A DNA stretch of 32,451 nt, taken from NCBI GenBank assembly GCA_947498025.1, contig CANMJR010000034.1, positions 1 through 32,451 on the forward strand, given 5' to 3'. Both the position numbers and the translations under genes were made by a program. The notes below the pieces were generated by a model. That model was given only the letters and a program-made list of their open reading frames with translations. It was not told where the DNA came from and made no database searches. Shown piece by piece: positions 8,324-28,047 of the stretch. Source of the stretch: Helicobacteraceae bacterium (GTDB lineage Bacteria > Campylobacterota > Campylobacteria > Campylobacterales > Sulfurimonadaceae). Each line of letters starts with the position of its first letter. Position 1 is the stretch's first letter.

Positions 8324-10489
8324 ATGATAGAGTGGAATGACGGTTTAAGTGTCGGCGTTGAAGAGTTAGACAATGACCATAAAAAACTTTTAGACATTAT
8401 CAATCAACTCTCAGAAGCGATAGATGCAAATGCATCAGAGAGTATTTTAGATACTATTTTTAAAGATTTGGAAGAGTATGCTCTAATACATTTTGCTCAA
8501 GAAGAGTCTTATATAAAGCAGTGCAATCAGGATGCTCTTGCCGGACATAAAGAACAGCATGACGATTTTATTTCTAAAATACCGCAACTCAAAGCTGAAT
8601 TTTTAAGCACAAGCGATTACATTGTTGCCCAAGATACAACTATCTATTTAATTGACTGGTTACTAAACCATATTATTACTGAAGACATACCATTAATAAA
8701 CTTCTTTGAAAACTGTAAACTTGCTAAAAATAAAAACAGCGACAAAAAATCTTTATTTCAACGATTAATAAAAAAAACAACCGATACCTTTAGTTTTACC
8801 AAGAGAATATTACTCTCCGTCCTTATTCCTCTTATTGGAATGTTCTTTTTTGGCTCAATAATTCTTTGGAACAATTATCAAAAATTTGAAGAGATGAAAA
8901 ATACTTCTAGTATAACATACACTATCGGCAACATTAATACGCTTGCCCACAATATCCAAATTGAAAGAGGTTTAAGCAGTGGATATCTGACATCTATAGA
9001 AAATAAATTTGATAATAGACTGCAAAGACAAAAAGAAATTGTGGATAATGATGTAGTCTCATTCGTAAATAAACTCAAAACAGTTCACAAAGAGAAGTTA
9101 ATTATAATACAGCCGTTTATAAATATATTTGAGGAAGATATGCTTACATTAAATAATCTTCGTAAGCAGATAAACGATAAAAAAATCTCTCAAATTGATG
9201 CGATAAATACTTATTCTACGATACTAAGAAATATACTCTCCATCACCCCAAGAATAGCCTTTCTCAATATTGATGGTGCAATCTCCTCCTCTATAGCAAC
9301 TTTATCGTCTATCTTACATCTAAAAGAGGCTCTAGGGCAAGAGAGAGCCTATGGAACAATGTTTATAGAGAAAAAAAGTACAACTAGAGATGAGGATATT
9401 TCATTCATGCAACTTCTTGGTACTCAAAAATCTTTTCTACTTATGTTTGAGCAAACAGCATCACAAAATCAAAAGAGCATTATGGAGACTATTTTTAATT
9501 CTATCATTGCAAAACGAATATCCAAATCTGAAGAAAAACTAAAAAACAGAGATTTTGAGAACTTAGATTCTGAAATTTGGTTCAATGCACTCACAGAACT
9601 AATAGATAGTGTAAAAAATTTTGAAGATCAGCTTTTGATTGGAATTAATGATTTAATTGACAATCGTATAAGTAGTACGATTCAAAATCTTTTTTTATGG
9701 ATTCTTTTCAATACCATTATACTGGCTACTACTTTTTTTATACTCTATACACTAAAAAAAAGCTCAACAAAGCAAATTACTCAGCTAACAGATGCTATGA
9801 AAGATTTGGCAAGTGGTGGCAGAAGTTTTCGACTCTCTCCAATTATGATTAACAGAGACGAAATAGCATGTATGTATGATTCTTATGAAACTACCAGGAT
9901 AAGGCTTCTAAAAGGAGATATATTCACACAATTATATAAAAATCAAAAAGATATTGAACTAAAAAGCAAACAAAGAGAAAATGTAAAACTTGAAGAGATG
10001 GCATTTCGTGACACATTAACAGGAATGTTAAATCGCCGTAAATTTGAAGAGTTATCAGCACTTGAAATAAAACAAGCAAACCGTTATAGCCGTGATTTAA
10101 CTCTATTAATGTTGGATATAGATTATTTTAAAAATATCAATGACACATATGGACATGCAAGTGGGGATGAAGTGTTAAAGCATTTTGCAAATATTTGCAA
10201 GAATATAGCAAGAGAAGCGGATATTGTTGCTCGAATAGGCGGAGAGGAGTTTGTGATTATCCTTCCCCAAACAGATATAGAGGGTGCATATAACTTCTCA
10301 GAAAGATTGCGTAAAGAAGTTTTTAACTCAAGTGTAACTATAGAATCCCAAACCATAAAATATAGTGTCAGTATTGGAATTGCAAGTTTAAAAGATGACA
10401 AAAACATAAAAACTATTTTGCAAAAAGCTGATGAGGCTTTGTATGAAGCTAAAAAAAGTGGAAGAAACAGTACCGTAGTGTATAAATAA
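8324..10489 (+). CDS. Hemerythrin-NIT-GGDEF diguanylate cyclase
   Basis: A 721-aa sensor enzyme predicted to make c-di-GMP. Residues 1-130 are bacteriohemerythrin with all seven di-iron ligands visible: His19, His56, Glu60, His75, His79, His116, Asp121. A helix at about 160-182 leads into a probable extracytoplasmic region resembling the NIT nitrate/nitrite-sensing domain (IERGLSSGYL near 215, LKEALGQERAYG near 330). A second helix (LFLWILFNTIILATTFFIL) and a HAMP-like segment precede GGDEF, with ARIGGEEF as active site and READ as an intact RxxD inhibitory site. O2 binding by hemerythrin is well known; nitrate sensing is inferred from the NIT resemblance. It is a single-gene unit. Confidence 0.88.
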   Translation: MIEWNDGLSVGVEELDNDHKKLLDIINQLSEAIDANASESILDTIFKDLEEYALIHFAQEESYIKQCNQDALAGHKEQHDDFISKIPQLKAEFLSTSDYIVAQDTTIYLIDWLLNHIITEDIPLINFFENCKLAKNKNSDKKSLFQRLIKKTTDTFSFTKRILLSVLIPLIGMFFFGSIILWNNYQKFEEMKNTSSITYTIGNINTLAHNIQIERGLSSGYLTSIENKFDNRLQRQKEIVDNDVVSFVNKLKTVHKEKLIIIQPFINIFEEDMLTLNNLRKQINDKKISQIDAINTYSTILRNILSITPRIAFLNIDGAISSSIATLSSILHLKEALGQERAYGTMFIEKKSTTRDEDISFMQLLGTQKSFLLMFEQTASQNQKSIMETIFNSIIAKRISKSEEKLKNRDFENLDSEIWFNALTELIDSVKNFEDQLLIGINDLIDNRISSTIQNLFLWILFNTIILATTFFILYTLKKSSTKQITQLTDAMKDLASGGRSFRLSPIMINRDEIACMYDSYETTRIRLLKGDIFTQLYKNQKDIELKSKQRENVKLEEMAFRDTLTGMLNRRKFEELSALEIKQANRYSRDLTLLMLDIDYFKNINDTYGHASGDEVLKHFANICKNIAREADIVARIGGEEFVIILPQTDIEGAYNFSERLRKEVFNSSVTIESQTIKYSVSIGIASLKDDKNIKTILQKADEALYEAKKSGRNSTVVYK

Positions 10490-21574: not shown

Positions 21575-22819
21575 ATGGAAAGAATCTTAATCATCGAAGA
21601 CAACAAAACACTGGCGAAGCTTATTGCAAAAAAGATAAGTGTTGAACTAAACTTTGCGGTGGATGTGGCGTATCAACTCTCTGAAGCCAAACTTTTTTTA
21701 CAAAGATATAAATATTTTGTTACCCTTACCGACCTCAATCTGCCGGATGCACCAGAGGGTGAAGTTGTAGATTATCTTCTTTCAAAAGAGTGCCGTGTGA
21801 TTGTTCTTAGCGGAAATATCGACAAAGATTTTAGAGAGAAGATACTGAAGAAAAACATTATAGACTACATCAATAAAAGCGGAGTAGAGGATATAAGCTA
21901 TATTATCCACACCATCAGAAGACTTCATATGAACCAATTACATAAAGTTTTGGTTGTGGATGACTCTATGGTTTTTCGCAAATCAATGAAAGCCATGTTG
22001 GAGAACCTCTTTTTTCAAGTACTGACAGTGGCACATGGAGAAGAGGCACTGGGAATGATTAGCTCGCACCCCGACATCTCTCTTGTTTTAACCGACTACA
22101 ACATGCCTGTTATGGATGGACTTGAACTCACAAAAGAGATTAGAAAATTGCATAACAAAAACGACATGAGTATCATCGCGCTTTCATCAAACGAAGATGA
22201 GCAGATAACCGCCATGTTTCTAAAAAGCGGTGCGAATGACTACATCAAAAAACCCTTCTCAAAAGAGGAGTTTTCCTGCCGTATAAACAATGCTATTGAA
22301 GCGTTAGAAAACATCTTTATCATCACCAACCATGCAAACAGAGATTTTTTAACAGGTCTTTATAACCGCAGATACTTCTTTAAAAATGCAGAGCCCTATT
22401 TTAACGATGCCACGCAAAACAACGAGAGCTTTGCAATTGCCATGATTGACATAGACAATTTCAAAAAGATAAACGACACCTATGGGCATGACATGGGAGA
22501 TAAAGTAATAGTGAGTCTTTCGGAAATTTTGCGCACAAGCATAAACCAAAAAGATATAGTCGCAAGATTTGGCGGAGAGGAATTTTGTCTTCTTCTCAGA
22601 GATATTTCAGCTCATAATGCACTTATCGCATTCGAGAGACTTCGTGCCAATATAGAAAGAAATGTGATCTTTTCCGAGGATAGAAGGGAGATAAGATTTA
22701 CAATCTCCATCGGCGTTTCAATCAGCCATGAAGATACATTCGAAGAAGATATCAATCAGGCTGATCTGCTACTCTACAATGCGAAGCAGAGCGGAAGAAA
22801 TCAGATAGTTCACAACTAA
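21575..22819 (+). CDS. Response regulator diguanylate cyclase (REC-REC-GGDEF)
   Basis: 414 aa. The first receiver (ERILIIEDNKTL... TDLNLPD ... VLSG ... INKSG) and the second (HKVLVVDDSMVF ... LTDYNMPVMDG ... ALSS ... KKPF) both keep acidic pocket, phospho-Asp and Lys. The GGDEF domain has ARFGGEEF and should be active. The inhibitory RxxD site reads NQKD, so product inhibition is probably lost. Two in-series receivers suggest dimerisation or two-input control, as in PleD-like proteins. ATG 21575 has AAGGAG 8 nt upstream; the earlier ATG at 21551 has none. Confidence 0.92.
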   Translation: MERILIIEDNKTLAKLIAKKISVELNFAVDVAYQLSEAKLFLQRYKYFVTLTDLNLPDAPEGEVVDYLLSKECRVIVLSGNIDKDFREKILKKNIIDYINKSGVEDISYIIHTIRRLHMNQLHKVLVVDDSMVFRKSMKAMLENLFFQVLTVAHGEEALGMISSHPDISLVLTDYNMPVMDGLELTKEIRKLHNKNDMSIIALSSNEDEQITAMFLKSGANDYIKKPFSKEEFSCRINNAIEALENIFIITNHANRDFLTGLYNRRYFFKNAEPYFNDATQNNESFAIAMIDIDNFKKINDTYGHDMGDKVIVSLSEILRTSINQKDIVARFGGEEFCLLLRDISAHNALIAFERLRANIERNVIFSEDRREIRFTISIGVSISHEDTFEEDINQADLLLYNAKQSGRNQIVHN

Positions 22820-22826
22820 CTAATAT

Positions 22827-22911
22827 TACGCACTAAAACGAACGCGTCCGTTTTAGTGGCAGGGACAAATTGTCCCTACAACCCCCTAAAGCTACGAAAA
22901 ACAAGTTTTCG
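22827..22911 (+). repeat. Structured intergenic repeat, family A, copy 2 (A2)
   Basis: Same orientation and module order as A1. Palindrome CACTAAAACG / CGTTTTAGTG around ACGCGT at 22831-22858, AGGGACA-AAT-TGTCCCT at 22861-22877, CCCCCTAAAGCTA, then CGAAAA-ACAAG-TTTTCG at 22895-22911. It starts 8 nt after the regulator's stop and precedes the promoter of the GGDEF-EAL gene. Confidence 0.85.
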
Positions 22912-22951
22912 AGATTCATAAGGTTTTAAACTTCTTCTTTTTTTTTGATGG

Positions 22952-22975: not shown

Positions 22976-25900
22976 ATGGATTACTGCTCAATGAAATTAA
23001 ATCTTTCTCACTTAAAGAAACTGACAAGTAAAAATTTTTACTACATTTTTTTGCCTATCTTTATTTTTACTCTTTTGGTTACTTTTTTTACCCTTTTTGT
23101 CATAGACAGCGAAAAATTGGAGAGTGTAAATACCCATTTTTCTACCAAAGTTGAAATAGCACAACAAGATTTTAACGATGCTATAAGCGAACATGCCATC
23201 GGAATGGCTATGGTAGCAACTGCAATTTCGCAAGAGAGTGAGGTAAGGCAGAGTCTTATAAACTCGAATAAAAATAGTCTGCTAGAAAAATACAGCGAAA
23301 CATTTTCAAAACTAAAATCTGCAAACTCCATAACACACCTCTACTTTTTAGATAAAAATCGTAAAACTATTCTAAGAGTTCATACGCCGGCTAAAGACGG
23401 GGACTATATAGATAGGTTTACCGCAAAAAAAGCAGAGTCTAGCCGTAACACTTCTTATGGGATTGAACTCGGTGTCATGGGCACTTTAACGCTCAGGGTT
23501 GTAGTTCCCGTTATAAAAGAGAACGAGCTTATCGGTTATGTGGAACTTGGCAAAGAGATAGAGGATATTTTAGAAAGAATTTCCAACAAGCATAATGTTG
23601 AACTGCTTTTGATGATAGCTAAGGGCAACCTTACCGAAGAGGGTTGGAAACAAGGTATGAAAATGCTTGAAAGGGAGGCGAACTGGAAGTTATTTGACAA
23701 ATTTGCCCTCACATATACAACACAAAAATATGTCTCGCCAAATCTTATCAAATTAATCAACAGCTCAGATAGGGAGGAGAGTGTCACCATTGATGAAAAA
23801 ATATTTATGCTCTCCCCTGACAAAATCAAGGATGTCTCAAGCAGAGAGATTGGTCAACTGATTTTTCTGCAAGATTTGACAAATATTTTAAAAGGGAGAG
23901 ACTCGTTTATAATTCACAGCATACTCTTTGGATTAGCAAGCATGACAATATTTTTGCTCCTCGTCTATTTTATACTGCGCAGAAGTGAAATAAACAGTGA
24001 ACTTCAAAATCAGGAGATACTCAAAAATGAGCAAAGAATACAGGAGCTTCAAAAACTTTCAAAAATTATTGCTTGGGAAGTCGACAAAGAGGGACTTTAC
24101 ACATTTATAAGCGACTCTGTCTATGAAATACTTGGTTATAAAGCAACTGAAATAGTCAATAAAAAATACTTTTATGATTTTTACCCCATAGAAAGAAAAG
24201 ATGCGTTAAAAAATATTTTATTCGATCGTTTATACAAAAAAGAGTCATTTACCGGAGTAGTTGTTCCTGTTTTAAATATAAACAGAGAAACAGTCTGGAT
24301 TTCAATAAACGGAATTCCGGTGTTAGACGACAATGGCGAACTGCTTGGATGTAAAGGTGCCGGCAGAGATATTACACAAGAAGTAGCAAAAGAAAAAATA
24401 GCACAAGAGGCAAACAATCTTTTTAAAAAAATCATCAATGCAATTCCTCAAAGAGTCTTTTGGAAAGACTCAGATTTGCACTATTTAGGGTGTAATGAAG
24501 CCTTTGCAAAAGATTCGGGAAACTTATTTTCCGATGATATAATAGGCAAAGATGATTATCAAATGGCTTGGGCAGAACATGCAAAAGAGTACAGAATAGA
24601 CGATAGAAAAGTTATAAACTCCGGAATTCCTAAACTATTTTATGAAGAGGAGATAAAAACCTCATCCGGGGAGAGCATGTGGATAAGCACATCGAAAATT
24701 CCTCTTGTAAATAATGATGGCGAAACGGTCGGCGTAATAGGAGTTTTTGAAGATTTCACAGATAAAAAAATCTCTGAAGACAAAATACACAAACTGGCAT
24801 TTTATGATACTTTAACATCGCTTCCAAATAGAATGCTCTTTATGGATATTGTAAAAGCAGCCATGAAAGAGGCGGCACTTTCACATGTTTATACTGCTCT
24901 CATATTTATCGACCTTGATAATTTCAAAATATTGAATGACACTTTAGGGCATGAGATGGGTGATATTTTACTCCAAAGCGTAGCTAAAAGATTGCAAACG
25001 CTTGCCAAAAATGGAAACGCTCTTGCAAGATTGGGTGGAGATGAATTTGTTTTGATTCTCAAAAACTTAAGCACGGATGAGACAAAAGCTACAAACGAAT
25101 GTATGCGCACTGCCACGCAACTGCTCACACTGCTTCAAGAGCCATACCGACTAAAATGGGCTGAACATAAATCGAGTGCAAGTCTCGGCATCACTCTCTT
25201 TAACTCAGAACACATATCCATCGATACTCTTATGAAGCAGGCAGAACTTGCCCTCTATAAATCAAAAGAGTGCGGAAGAAATGCATTTAAATTTTTTGAG
25301 CCTGCTATGGAGAGTTCACTCAAAGAGAGAGCCGAGATTGAAAAAGAGTTGCGGGAAGCTATAAACAAAGGGGAGTTTGTTCTTTTTTATCAAGCACAGA
25401 TAGATGAGTCAAAAAAAGTAGTGGGTGCGGAAGCATTGGTGCGATGGAATCATCCGACAAAAGGTCTCATTTCGCCTCTTGTTTTTATACCGGTGGCTGA
25501 AGAGTGTGACATTATTTTAAAACTTGGAGATTGGATTTTAAAGAGTGCATGCGATGAACTTCAGAGATGGTCAAGTATAGATGCCATGAAAAAGATTACA
25601 CTTGCCATAAATATCAGTGTAAAACAGTTCAGCCAAAGCAATTTTGTAAAAAACACTCTCTCTATTATAAAAGAGAGCGGAGCAAACCCAAGATTGATAA
25701 AGTTAGAGATAACAGAGAGCATGCTTGTTGAGGACAAAGAGGGTATTATAGAGAAGATGGGCAAACTCAAAGAAGTTGGAATCCGCTTTTCGTTGGATGA
25801 TTTTGGAACAGGATACTCTTCTCTCTCCTACCTCAAACAGCTTCCTCTTAATCAGCTAAAAATTGACAAAAGCTTTGTAAAAGATATTCTTACCGATAAA

Positions 25901-26095
25901 AACGATGAAATAATTTGTAAATCAACAATAGCCATAGCACACACCATGGGACTCAATGTTATAGCAGAGGGTGTTGAAACACAAGAACAAAGAGAGATGT
26001 TAAATTCTATTGGATGCGCAACATATCAAGGGTATCTCTTTAGCAAACCGATTCCAAGCAGAGAGTTTGAAATATTTGTAATAGAGCATGATTAA
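22976..26095 (+). CDS. Cache-PAS-PAS-GGDEF-EAL c-di-GMP signalling protein
   Basis: 1039 aa. TM1 at about 21-43, a periplasmic double-Cache-like sensor (LRVHTPAKDGDYIDR and TLRVVVPVIKENELIGYVELG, about 60-305), TM2 at about 312-334, PAS domains at about 360-475 and 485-600, GGDEF at about 615-775 with ARLGGDEF, and EAL at about 790-1035. The EAL domain keeps AEALVRW, NISVKQF, ITESML, DDFGTGYSSL, LKIDKSF and AEGVET, so phosphodiesterase activity is expected. The GGDEF inhibitory site is absent (KNGN). No convincing ribosome site precedes the ATG; an in-frame ATG at 22991 is an alternative. Its stop overlaps the next ATG (TAATG). Confidence 0.92.
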   Translation: MDYCSMKLNLSHLKKLTSKNFYYIFLPIFIFTLLVTFFTLFVIDSEKLESVNTHFSTKVEIAQQDFNDAISEHAIGMAMVATAISQESEVRQSLINSNKNSLLEKYSETFSKLKSANSITHLYFLDKNRKTILRVHTPAKDGDYIDRFTAKKAESSRNTSYGIELGVMGTLTLRVVVPVIKENELIGYVELGKEIEDILERISNKHNVELLLMIAKGNLTEEGWKQGMKMLEREANWKLFDKFALTYTTQKYVSPNLIKLINSSDREESVTIDEKIFMLSPDKIKDVSSREIGQLIFLQDLTNILKGRDSFIIHSILFGLASMTIFLLLVYFILRRSEINSELQNQEILKNEQRIQELQKLSKIIAWEVDKEGLYTFISDSVYEILGYKATEIVNKKYFYDFYPIERKDALKNILFDRLYKKESFTGVVVPVLNINRETVWISINGIPVLDDNGELLGCKGAGRDITQEVAKEKIAQEANNLFKKIINAIPQRVFWKDSDLHYLGCNEAFAKDSGNLFSDDIIGKDDYQMAWAEHAKEYRIDDRKVINSGIPKLFYEEEIKTSSGESMWISTSKIPLVNNDGETVGVIGVFEDFTDKKISEDKIHKLAFYDTLTSLPNRMLFMDIVKAAMKEAALSHVYTALIFIDLDNFKILNDTLGHEMGDILLQSVAKRLQTLAKNGNALARLGGDEFVLILKNLSTDETKATNECMRTATQLLTLLQEPYRLKWAEHKSSASLGITLFNSEHISIDTLMKQAELALYKSKECGRNAFKFFEPAMESSLKERAEIEKELREAINKGEFVLFYQAQIDESKKVVGAEALVRWNHPTKGLISPLVFIPVAEECDIILKLGDWILKSACDELQRWSSIDAMKKITLAINISVKQFSQSNFVKNTLSIIKESGANPRLIKLEITESMLVEDKEGIIEKMGKLKEVGIRFSLDDFGTGYSSLSYLKQLPLNQLKIDKSFVKDILTDKNDEIICKSTIAIAHTMGLNVIAEGVETQEQREMLNSIGCATYQGYLFSKPIPSREFEIFVIEHD

Positions 26096-26253
26096 TGCAT
26101 AATCTGAAATAAAAAATAATTTTTATTGTCACTTTTATAATCTTCATAGTTGCGTTTGTAGTTACGGGCTATACCGTAATCTATGAGAAAAAACAGAGCC
26201 GGCAAAGAATTGCGGATGCCCACAAAAGCGTTACAACCACCTATAAAGAAAGC
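26095..26253 (+). pseudogene. Interrupted N-terminus (TM1) of the following Cache-GGDEF gene
   Basis: ATG at 26095 overlaps the preceding stop as TAATG. It reads MHNLK, then TAA at 26110-26112, then continues in the same frame as KIIFIVTFIIFIVAFVV (a convincing membrane helix) and on without a break to the ATG at 26254. No ATG, GTG or TTG occurs in frame between the stop and 26254. The simplest reading is a one-base nonsense change in codon 6 (for example from AAA, CAA or GAA) in a gene of 603 codons. Confidence 0.75.
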
Positions 26254-27906
26254 ATGGATGAGATTGTAAACTTTTTTCATGCAAGAGCGAATGAGTTTAT
26301 AGCCGACAAAGAGATTTTCCAAGCCATCTTAAATAAAAATCACGATGCGCTTTACATGCTGACAAAAGAGAGATGGGCTGTGCTGCAGCAAGAAAATCCG
26401 CATCTCATTGTTTTGCAATTTCATAACTCTGACGGAACATCGCTCCTCAGAGTGCATCGACCAACCTTATATGGGGATAATATTGCAAAAAAAAGAGAGA
26501 CGCTCTCTGAAATTCATTCAAAACATAAGCTTCTTTCTGGGTTTGAAGAGGGAAGAGCCGGCTTTGTATTCAGGATTTTGGTGCCGATTTTTAATAATGA
26601 GGAGTATATCGGTGCAATCGAGTTTGGAGTCTCTGCTCAAAATTTGGCAAAGCTAATCAAACATGACACAAATCTTGATGCTCTCTTTTTTACCCATAAG
26701 AGCTACATTGGTAAGTTTCAAGAGCTAAAAGAGAGTACGGCGGTGGGCGATTTCACTTCACTCAACATGCCGGAGTCGCTGCTGCCGCTTTTTAACAGAT
26801 ATAAAAAAATCTACAATACGCTCGAAAACAATTTTATAGAATTTGGCGCTCATTTATACTACCTCTCCACAACTCAGATTAAAAATTATAAAGGCGACGA
26901 GATAGGTCTGCTTGTATTTTTAAATCAGATGGATGATTTTGAAGGCTATATAAAAGGTATTGCGCTATCCTCTCTCCTTATCACTTTAACCCTAATAATG
27001 ATTGTAGCAATATTCGTACATTTTTTATACAACAGAATAAGCGGTAAAATGAACTTTCAAGAGCTTTTCAACCAAACCGTATTAGACGCCATACCATCCC
27101 CGATTATCGTAACCGACGGAAAAGAACTAATATTAGCAAATCAAACTTTTTTACTCTATTTTAAATACAAGAGTATTGACGCTTTTAAAAAAGAGCATCA
27201 ATGTGTTTGTGAATACTTTGAGGAGGGTGATACGGATGAATTTCTTATGCCCAATAAAGACGATAGAATTTGGACAGAATATGTCTTTCACAATCCGGAA
27301 AAAAACCATAAGGTAAAAATCACCATAAATGATACAACAACTGTTTTTGATGTAAAACTCTCAGTACTTCAATACAATAATGCAGCACGATATGTTGTGG
27401 TTTTTACAGACATATCATCGCTCCAATCATTAAGCACAAACGATTCGCTCACCGGCATAGCGAACAGACTCCATTTTGGCATGGTTTATGAGCATTTGAT
27501 AAGCATGGCAAAAAGAGAGCACAGCGATTTAGGTGTTATATTCTTTGACATAGACCACTTCAAAAAGATAAATGATAATCACGGACACCTAGTGGGAGAC
27601 TCAGTTTTAAAAGGCATTTCTAGTCTTATAAAACACAAAACAAGAAAAAGCGACATCTTTGCAAGGTGGGGCGGAGAGGAGTTTATAATACTTCTTCCAA
27701 ATACTCCGCTGGAGAGTTGTGTAGCGATTGCAGAGGGAATGCGCCTCTCTATAGCAAATCAAGGTTTTGTCAACTCGCTCAAAGTTACCTGCTCTTTTGG
27801 CGTAGCGACTCTCAGAGAAAATGAGTCATCCCACGAACTCATAAAACGGGTAGATTCACTCCTTTATGAGGCTAAAGAGCTTGGCAGGAATCGAGTTGTC
27901 TCGTAA
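26254..27906 (+). CDS. Cache-GGDEF diguanylate cyclase, 5'-truncated by an in-frame stop
   Basis: 550 aa from the first usable ATG. The sensor region resembles the neighbour's Cache domain (LLRVHRPTLYGD and FRILVPIFNNEEYIGAIEFG). TM2 (SLLITLTLIMIVAIFVHFLY) is near 230-250, followed by a PAS-like region and GGDEF with ARWGGEEF and an intact inhibitory RKSD. Translated from 26254 it would lack TM1, leaving the Cache domain on the wrong side of the membrane. There is no good ribosome site before 26254. The enzyme may be inactive as a sensor, or the upstream stop could be a sequencing error or be bypassed. It is the second gene of the operon. Confidence 0.8.
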   Translation: MDEIVNFFHARANEFIADKEIFQAILNKNHDALYMLTKERWAVLQQENPHLIVLQFHNSDGTSLLRVHRPTLYGDNIAKKRETLSEIHSKHKLLSGFEEGRAGFVFRILVPIFNNEEYIGAIEFGVSAQNLAKLIKHDTNLDALFFTHKSYIGKFQELKESTAVGDFTSLNMPESLLPLFNRYKKIYNTLENNFIEFGAHLYYLSTTQIKNYKGDEIGLLVFLNQMDDFEGYIKGIALSSLLITLTLIMIVAIFVHFLYNRISGKMNFQELFNQTVLDAIPSPIIVTDGKELILANQTFLLYFKYKSIDAFKKEHQCVCEYFEEGDTDEFLMPNKDDRIWTEYVFHNPEKNHKVKITINDTTTVFDVKLSVLQYNNAARYVVVFTDISSLQSLSTNDSLTGIANRLHFGMVYEHLISMAKREHSDLGVIFFDIDHFKKINDNHGHLVGDSVLKGISSLIKHKTRKSDIFARWGGEEFIILLPNTPLESCVAIAEGMRLSIANQGFVNSLKVTCSFGVATLRENESSHELIKRVDSLLYEAKELGRNRVVS

Positions 27907-27958: not shown

Positions 27959-28047
27959 CCCATATCCGACAGATATGGGTAGCTTTAGGGGGTTATAGGG
28001 ACAAAATTTGTCCATGCAACTAAAACGGACGCGTTCGTTTTAGTGTG
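27959..28047 (-). repeat. Structured intergenic repeat, family A, copy 3 (A3, inverted)
   Basis: Reverse-oriented relative to A1 and A2. Palindrome ACTAAAACG / CGTTTTAGT around a GACGCGTT centre at 28019-28044, GGACAAA-A-TTTGTCC at 27999-28013, TAGCTTTAGGGGG at 27980-27992, then a different third hairpin, CCCATATC-CGACA-GATATGGG at 27959-27979. It lies between convergent operons, 18 nt from the receptor stop. Confidence 0.85.

Follow-up and report, generated by a model that had tools for sequence, protein, structure and literature searches.

A probable recent nonsense substitution at codon 6 of an otherwise intact two-helix diguanylate cyclase gene in a Sulfurimonas-type bacterium

Diguanylate cyclase genes interrupted by premature stop codons are already known from Shigella flexneri, in which dgcE, dgcQ and dgcN, although nonsense mutations precede their GGDEF domains, still raise the c-di-GMP level, and dgcM lowered it in E. 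coli (PMC11327459). The authors of that study discuss A-rich initiation sites as well as read-through and the use of several starts, and since the nonsense-bearing Shigella enzymes still make c-di-GMP, loss of activity cannot be assumed in a comparable case. The locus described here resembles dgcQ, dgcN, dgcM and dgcE in having a premature stop before an intact GGDEF domain, intact copies in close relatives and several other cyclases remaining in the genome (PMC11327459). It differs in the position of the stop, which lies at residues 56–366 in the Shigella genes and at codon 6 here, and in the distance to the next methionine, which follows almost directly in two of the four Shigella genes (dgcQ, stop 56/Met 59; dgcM, stop 177/Met 180), while here it comes 48 codons on; moreover, effects on c-di-GMP were measured for the Shigella genes (PMC11327459). 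The combination of a very early stop with the lack of a nearby canonical restart is particular to this case. A search of open-licence literature listings on Sulfurimonas found no report of this case.

The gene lies on the forward strand of the window, i.e., the whole analysed stretch of 32,451 nucleotides, which represents contig 34 of a 2.93 Mb draft genome in 102 contigs. The frame beginning at 26095 reads ATG CAT AAT CTG AAA and is closed by TAA at 26110–26112; codon-for-codon alignment with two intact relatives identified 26095–26112 as the original start, codons 2–5 and an in-frame stop in place of codon 6. The start codon (26095–26097) overlaps the TAA of the upstream gene (26093–26095) within the motif TAATG at 26093–26097. 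Behind the stop, 597 open codons run from 26113 to the next stop, which ends at 27906. A second reading of the letters confirmed what the earlier note had described, namely the ATG within TAATG, the five codons, the TAA at 26110 and the open frame after it, including the exact count of 47 codons (26113–26253) without ATG, GTG or TTG; the near-cognate codons ATA and ATT are present in this stretch at 26116 and 26119. The next in-frame ATG (26254–26256) is located 141 nt past the stop and corresponds to residue 48 of the 597-residue reading, designated P0001; judged by Shine-Dalgarno pairing and protein alignment, it is an internal methionine and not the ancestral start. The A-run past the stop was considered as a site of slippage giving phase variation, but this was rejected, because the ATG at 26095 and the codons past the stop share one frame as they stand; the other two frames have stops just ahead of the A-run, with no ATG, GTG or TTG in between.

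P0001 consists of a membrane helix, a dCache_3 sensor (residues 36–270, 26218–26922; Pfam PF14827, E 9.3e-23), a second membrane helix (residues 283–301, 26959–27015), a PAS domain and a GGDEF domain (27439–27894; Pfam PF00990, E 1.4e-42), in this order and all on the forward strand. The GGDEF domain has the catalytic motif GGEEF, preceded at a distance of five residues by an RxxD inhibitory site (RKSD-IFARW-GGEEF), so that both the active-type GG[D/E]EF motif and the RxxD site are present. The only NCBIfam model above its cut-off was that of the general GGDEF domain, and all 52 matches to solved structures were confined to the GGDEF part. The two most hydrophobic stretches of P0001 were found at residues 2–20 (hydropathy 2.83) and 283–301 (2.68). 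In the predicted structure (mean pLDDT 82.8, pTM 0.48) the second stretch belongs to a helix of residues 276–312, while residues 2–64 form a single helix, so that the start-free stretch 26113–26253 encodes the first membrane helix and at least the first two thirds of the long helix leading into the sensor; the ATG at 26254 falls within this predicted helix. The clear membrane helix reported earlier behind the stop is thus borne out by hydropathy, as well as by the N-termini of the orthologues. The sensor between two helices is not joined in one frame to a start codon, as the TAA at 26110 parts the start from helix 1.

The N-terminal 320 residues were used as the query against 228 genomes of the family, giving matches at E ≤ 1e-20 in 88 of them. 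The 30 best-matching loci were kept; one of these was the window itself, and in all 29 others the start and helix were open and free of stops, although six of the 29 (L137–L142) are only 27–31% identical and may be paralogues. The nearest relatives, G235 and G168, belong to the same genus (89 and 76% identity over the 320 residues, respectively), align with the present gene codon for codon and encode 603 residues each from an in-frame GTG or ATG aligned with the ATG at 26095. The comparison at codon 6 called for in the earlier note revealed leucine in both, with the codon of the nearer relative G235 being one substitution away from TAA. The stop therefore occupies the place of a sense codon, the mark of a nonsense pseudogene, and is specific to this lineage, since the 29 other loci are open and the two closest relatives have leucine at this position. 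An absence of the upstream helix from orthologues, which according to the same note would have spoken against its reading, was not observed: besides the 29 open loci, the helix was present in every one of 13 aligned proteins, which were picked from the available loci and include the window, and the head of the present gene aligned with the orthologue N-termini residue for residue. The latter also ruled out a mis-called start, that is, a gene beginning at 26254. The Sulfurimonas/Sulfuricurvum orthologues (G235, G168 and L033–L035) share the N-terminal helix and can be aligned over the whole length, but have a sense codon at position 6 instead of TAA.

Among the matches listed, in-frame stops were also seen in homologous GGDEF or sensor matches outside the 30 compared loci: one TAA each in the distant homologues G069:C15:128118-129044 and G222:C231:11065-11634, three TAG and three TAA in G036:C32:378-1376 and one TAG and one TAA in G006:C1:249385-250353. 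These are possibly other decaying copies.

The upstream gene (22976–26095, forward strand) encodes a dCache_3-PAS-PAS-GGDEF-EAL protein of 1039 amino acids. Its homologues are located directly upstream of the intact cyclase genes in G235 (83% over residues 253–1038) and G168 (80% over residues 754–1038), where in both cases a contig end cuts the gene, and the neighborhood is therefore as in the intact copies on the upstream side, which was the side compared in these two genomes. The junction itself differs: G235 and G168 have a stop-start overlap of 4 nt (GTGA/ATGA), while the TAATG of the present locus overlaps by 1 nt. Inspection by eye showed an EAL-like end ahead of L034 and L035 as well, and none was seen just upstream of L033. 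The gene pair is flanked by a palindromic intergenic repeat at 22820–22920 and, in a second copy spotted by eye, at about 27975–28047. The arms of 14 and 13 nt read ACTAAAACG.../...CGTTTTAGT, and the first copy had at least 39 further matches in the genome (at least 76 bp, 86–96%) with 40 of 118 candidates scored; the element looks REP/BIME-like.

The state of the gene past the stop was assessed from changes polarized with G168 over codons 7–603, comparing this branch with the sister branch. The ratio of nonsynonymous to synonymous changes was 31:43 here and 28:27 in the sister (Fisher p 0.37), with omega-like values of 0.19 and 0.28, respectively, and the nonsynonymous share on this branch was 0.42 (95% interval 0.31–0.54) against 0.79 of the sites. 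Thus, no relaxation of constraint and no decay is evident past the stop, which fits a recent event. Constraint over most of the branch implies one of three things, namely a recent stop, continued production of the protein or an erroneous base; because of this purifying selection, any loss of the gene would have to be recent. The first 53 codons had five lineage-specific amino acid changes here and none in the sister (p 0.06), or 4:0 without codons 1–5 (p 0.12), in a test from which codon 6 and the sites with three different bases (one in codons 1–53 and 32 elsewhere) were omitted. Although suggestive of relaxed constraint at the N-terminus, this excess is not significant, nor is it rare, since 51 of the 556 windows of 47 codons along the gene showed at least five changes here and no more than one in the sister.

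A background sample of 432 kb from the same genome, made up of the window and 20 stretches of 20 kb, was used to estimate how often such a structure arises by chance. Among 219 ORFs of at least 250 amino acids, an open start-free head of at least 47 codons was found in two, this ORF included, and the head of the other was longer, so that a long head was rejected as proof on its own. Of the 19 heads that could be scored for 19-residue hydropathy the present one ranked first (2.83 against 1.91 for the next). Chance is excluded by homology, because the head aligns with the orthologue N-termini. The sample contained 53 pairs of ORFs in the same frame parted by one stop. Start-free heads of 44–53 codons were also noted on the minus strand of L168 (9867–9998), L167 (2569–2706) and L157 (6856–7014; all in reverse-complement coordinates), which may represent broken genes or may be due to chance. 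In the whole genome there are 63 GGDEF matches, and at least four GGDEF domains are located in the 32-kb contig among the matches listed (10001–10468, 22334–22804, 24797–25282 and 27439–27894). The end of the contig (32300–32451) falls inside an IS-like element with an ORF beginning, as read by eye, with MSKYEQLTKKEPKNFKRLIGVNKETFEAM; the final 152 bases of the contig are repeated at 16 further sites in the genome with 99–100% identity, and 11 of these sites are at base 1–5 of a contig. Such recurrent IS-like contig edges suggest a short-read assembly.

With a probability of roughly 70%, we read the locus as the gene of a two-helix dCache_3-PAS-GGDEF diguanylate cyclase that is intact except for codon 6, where a nonsense substitution specific to this lineage has recently occurred. 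Among the four options of the earlier note (recent nonsense mutation, sequencing error, read-through and loss of sensor topology), the first is thereby favored, while read-through in a conserved or programmed form found no support. Ribosomes leaving the GGDEF-EAL gene would restart at the overlapping TAATG, read five codons and halt at 26110, and since no canonical start lies within the range of reinitiation, the full-length enzyme would probably be lost or reduced to trace amounts. The loss of one cyclase is plausibly tolerated in a genome with 63 GGDEF matches, and this enzyme may therefore be dispensable. Against the loss reading, an undecayed downstream gene would also be expected of an artefact or of continued expression.

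The main rival is a base-calling or assembly error, in which case codon 6 would be a sense codon in the actual genome and the gene would be uninterrupted; we regard it as possible, but distinctly less probable than a real substitution. The codon of G235 is one substitution from TAA and stands in an A/T-run context, the rest of the gene appears fully constrained and the genome is a draft in 102 contigs, all of which would fit an error. However, the change keeps the length of the gene and is therefore not a simple homopolymer indel, while the contig edges point to a short-read assembly, and in such assemblies consensus substitutions are rare. Furthermore, the gene family hit by the change is highly redundant, which is what a real and tolerated mutation would lead one to expect, and the nonsignificant N-terminal excess of changes hints, if anything, at relaxed constraint.

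An unlikely alternative is that the stop is real, yet a near-full-length enzyme is made at a low level, either by reinitiation at AUA 26116 or AUU 26119 or by basal read-through of the UAA. AUA and AUU are poor start codons. Shine-Dalgarno pairing is absent at both (+0.4 kcal/mol against −2.1 kcal/mol at the ATG 26095), and a protein begun there would presumably lack the N-terminal lysines that set the inside topology. On the other hand, both codons, 3 and 6 nt past the stop, are inside the short coupling range known from E. coli, where coupled reinitiation drops by 40–80% at +14 nt and is nearly abolished at +38 nt (PMC10666635). In the accessible text of PMC11497404 nothing on AUA or AUU as starts was found, and PMC4648390 deals with eukaryotic reinitiation and is not used as evidence here. 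For the full-length-size bands obtained from the prematurely stopped dgcQ and dgcN of Shigella, read-through is one option discussed, although the Results of the same study attribute the second dgcQ band to a restart methionine instead (PMC11327459). An anticodon reading UAA was absent among the 39 tRNA genes found in the present genome, a set that is incomplete in that no tRNA-Ile was called; ochre suppression was rejected on this basis. That the five-codon leader and near-cognate reinitiation just past the stop constitute a recently evolved down-tuning of a near-full-length cyclase by the upstream gene, rather than its loss, seems more doubtful still.

A shortened functional cyclase from ATG 26254, with one membrane helix or constitutively active, is as improbable as such down-tuning. 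The earlier suggestion of a cyclase without its first helix is weakly supported in that 26254 is the first canonical start, and PAS and GGDEF would stay intact in its product. Yet such a product is unlikely, because the ATG is inside a predicted continuous helix, which would be cut at residue 48, and 141 nt past the stop; in addition, methionine occupies this position in only three of the 13 aligned proteins, window included, and its anti-Shine-Dalgarno pairing of −0.9 kcal/mol equals the median of 1000 random positions. The pairing alone settles nothing, because the values of 12 further ORF starts scored in the window span −7.7 to +0.8 kcal/mol and two of these starts pair even more weakly. 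A protein started at 26254 would be missing helix 1 together with the greater part of the first sensor helix. Even with some GGDEF domain being made, it would therefore have lost sensing and topology. Conserved or programmed read-through finds no support, since none of the 29 other loci has a stop at the same place and no UAA-reading tRNA was among the 39 found.

The stop is thus most likely an ordinary and fairly recent mutation that silences the gene, and not a novel genetic mechanism. For annotation the locus is a warning, as calling the gene from ATG 26254 would hide the stop and yield a false one-helix sensor. Continued production of the protein, if it occurred, would add a further case to the Shigella observation that nonsense-bearing diguanylate cyclases can remain active, while a recent nonsense substitution, as favored here, would make the locus a clean case of a signaling gene at an early stage of loss that can be compared with intact relatives.
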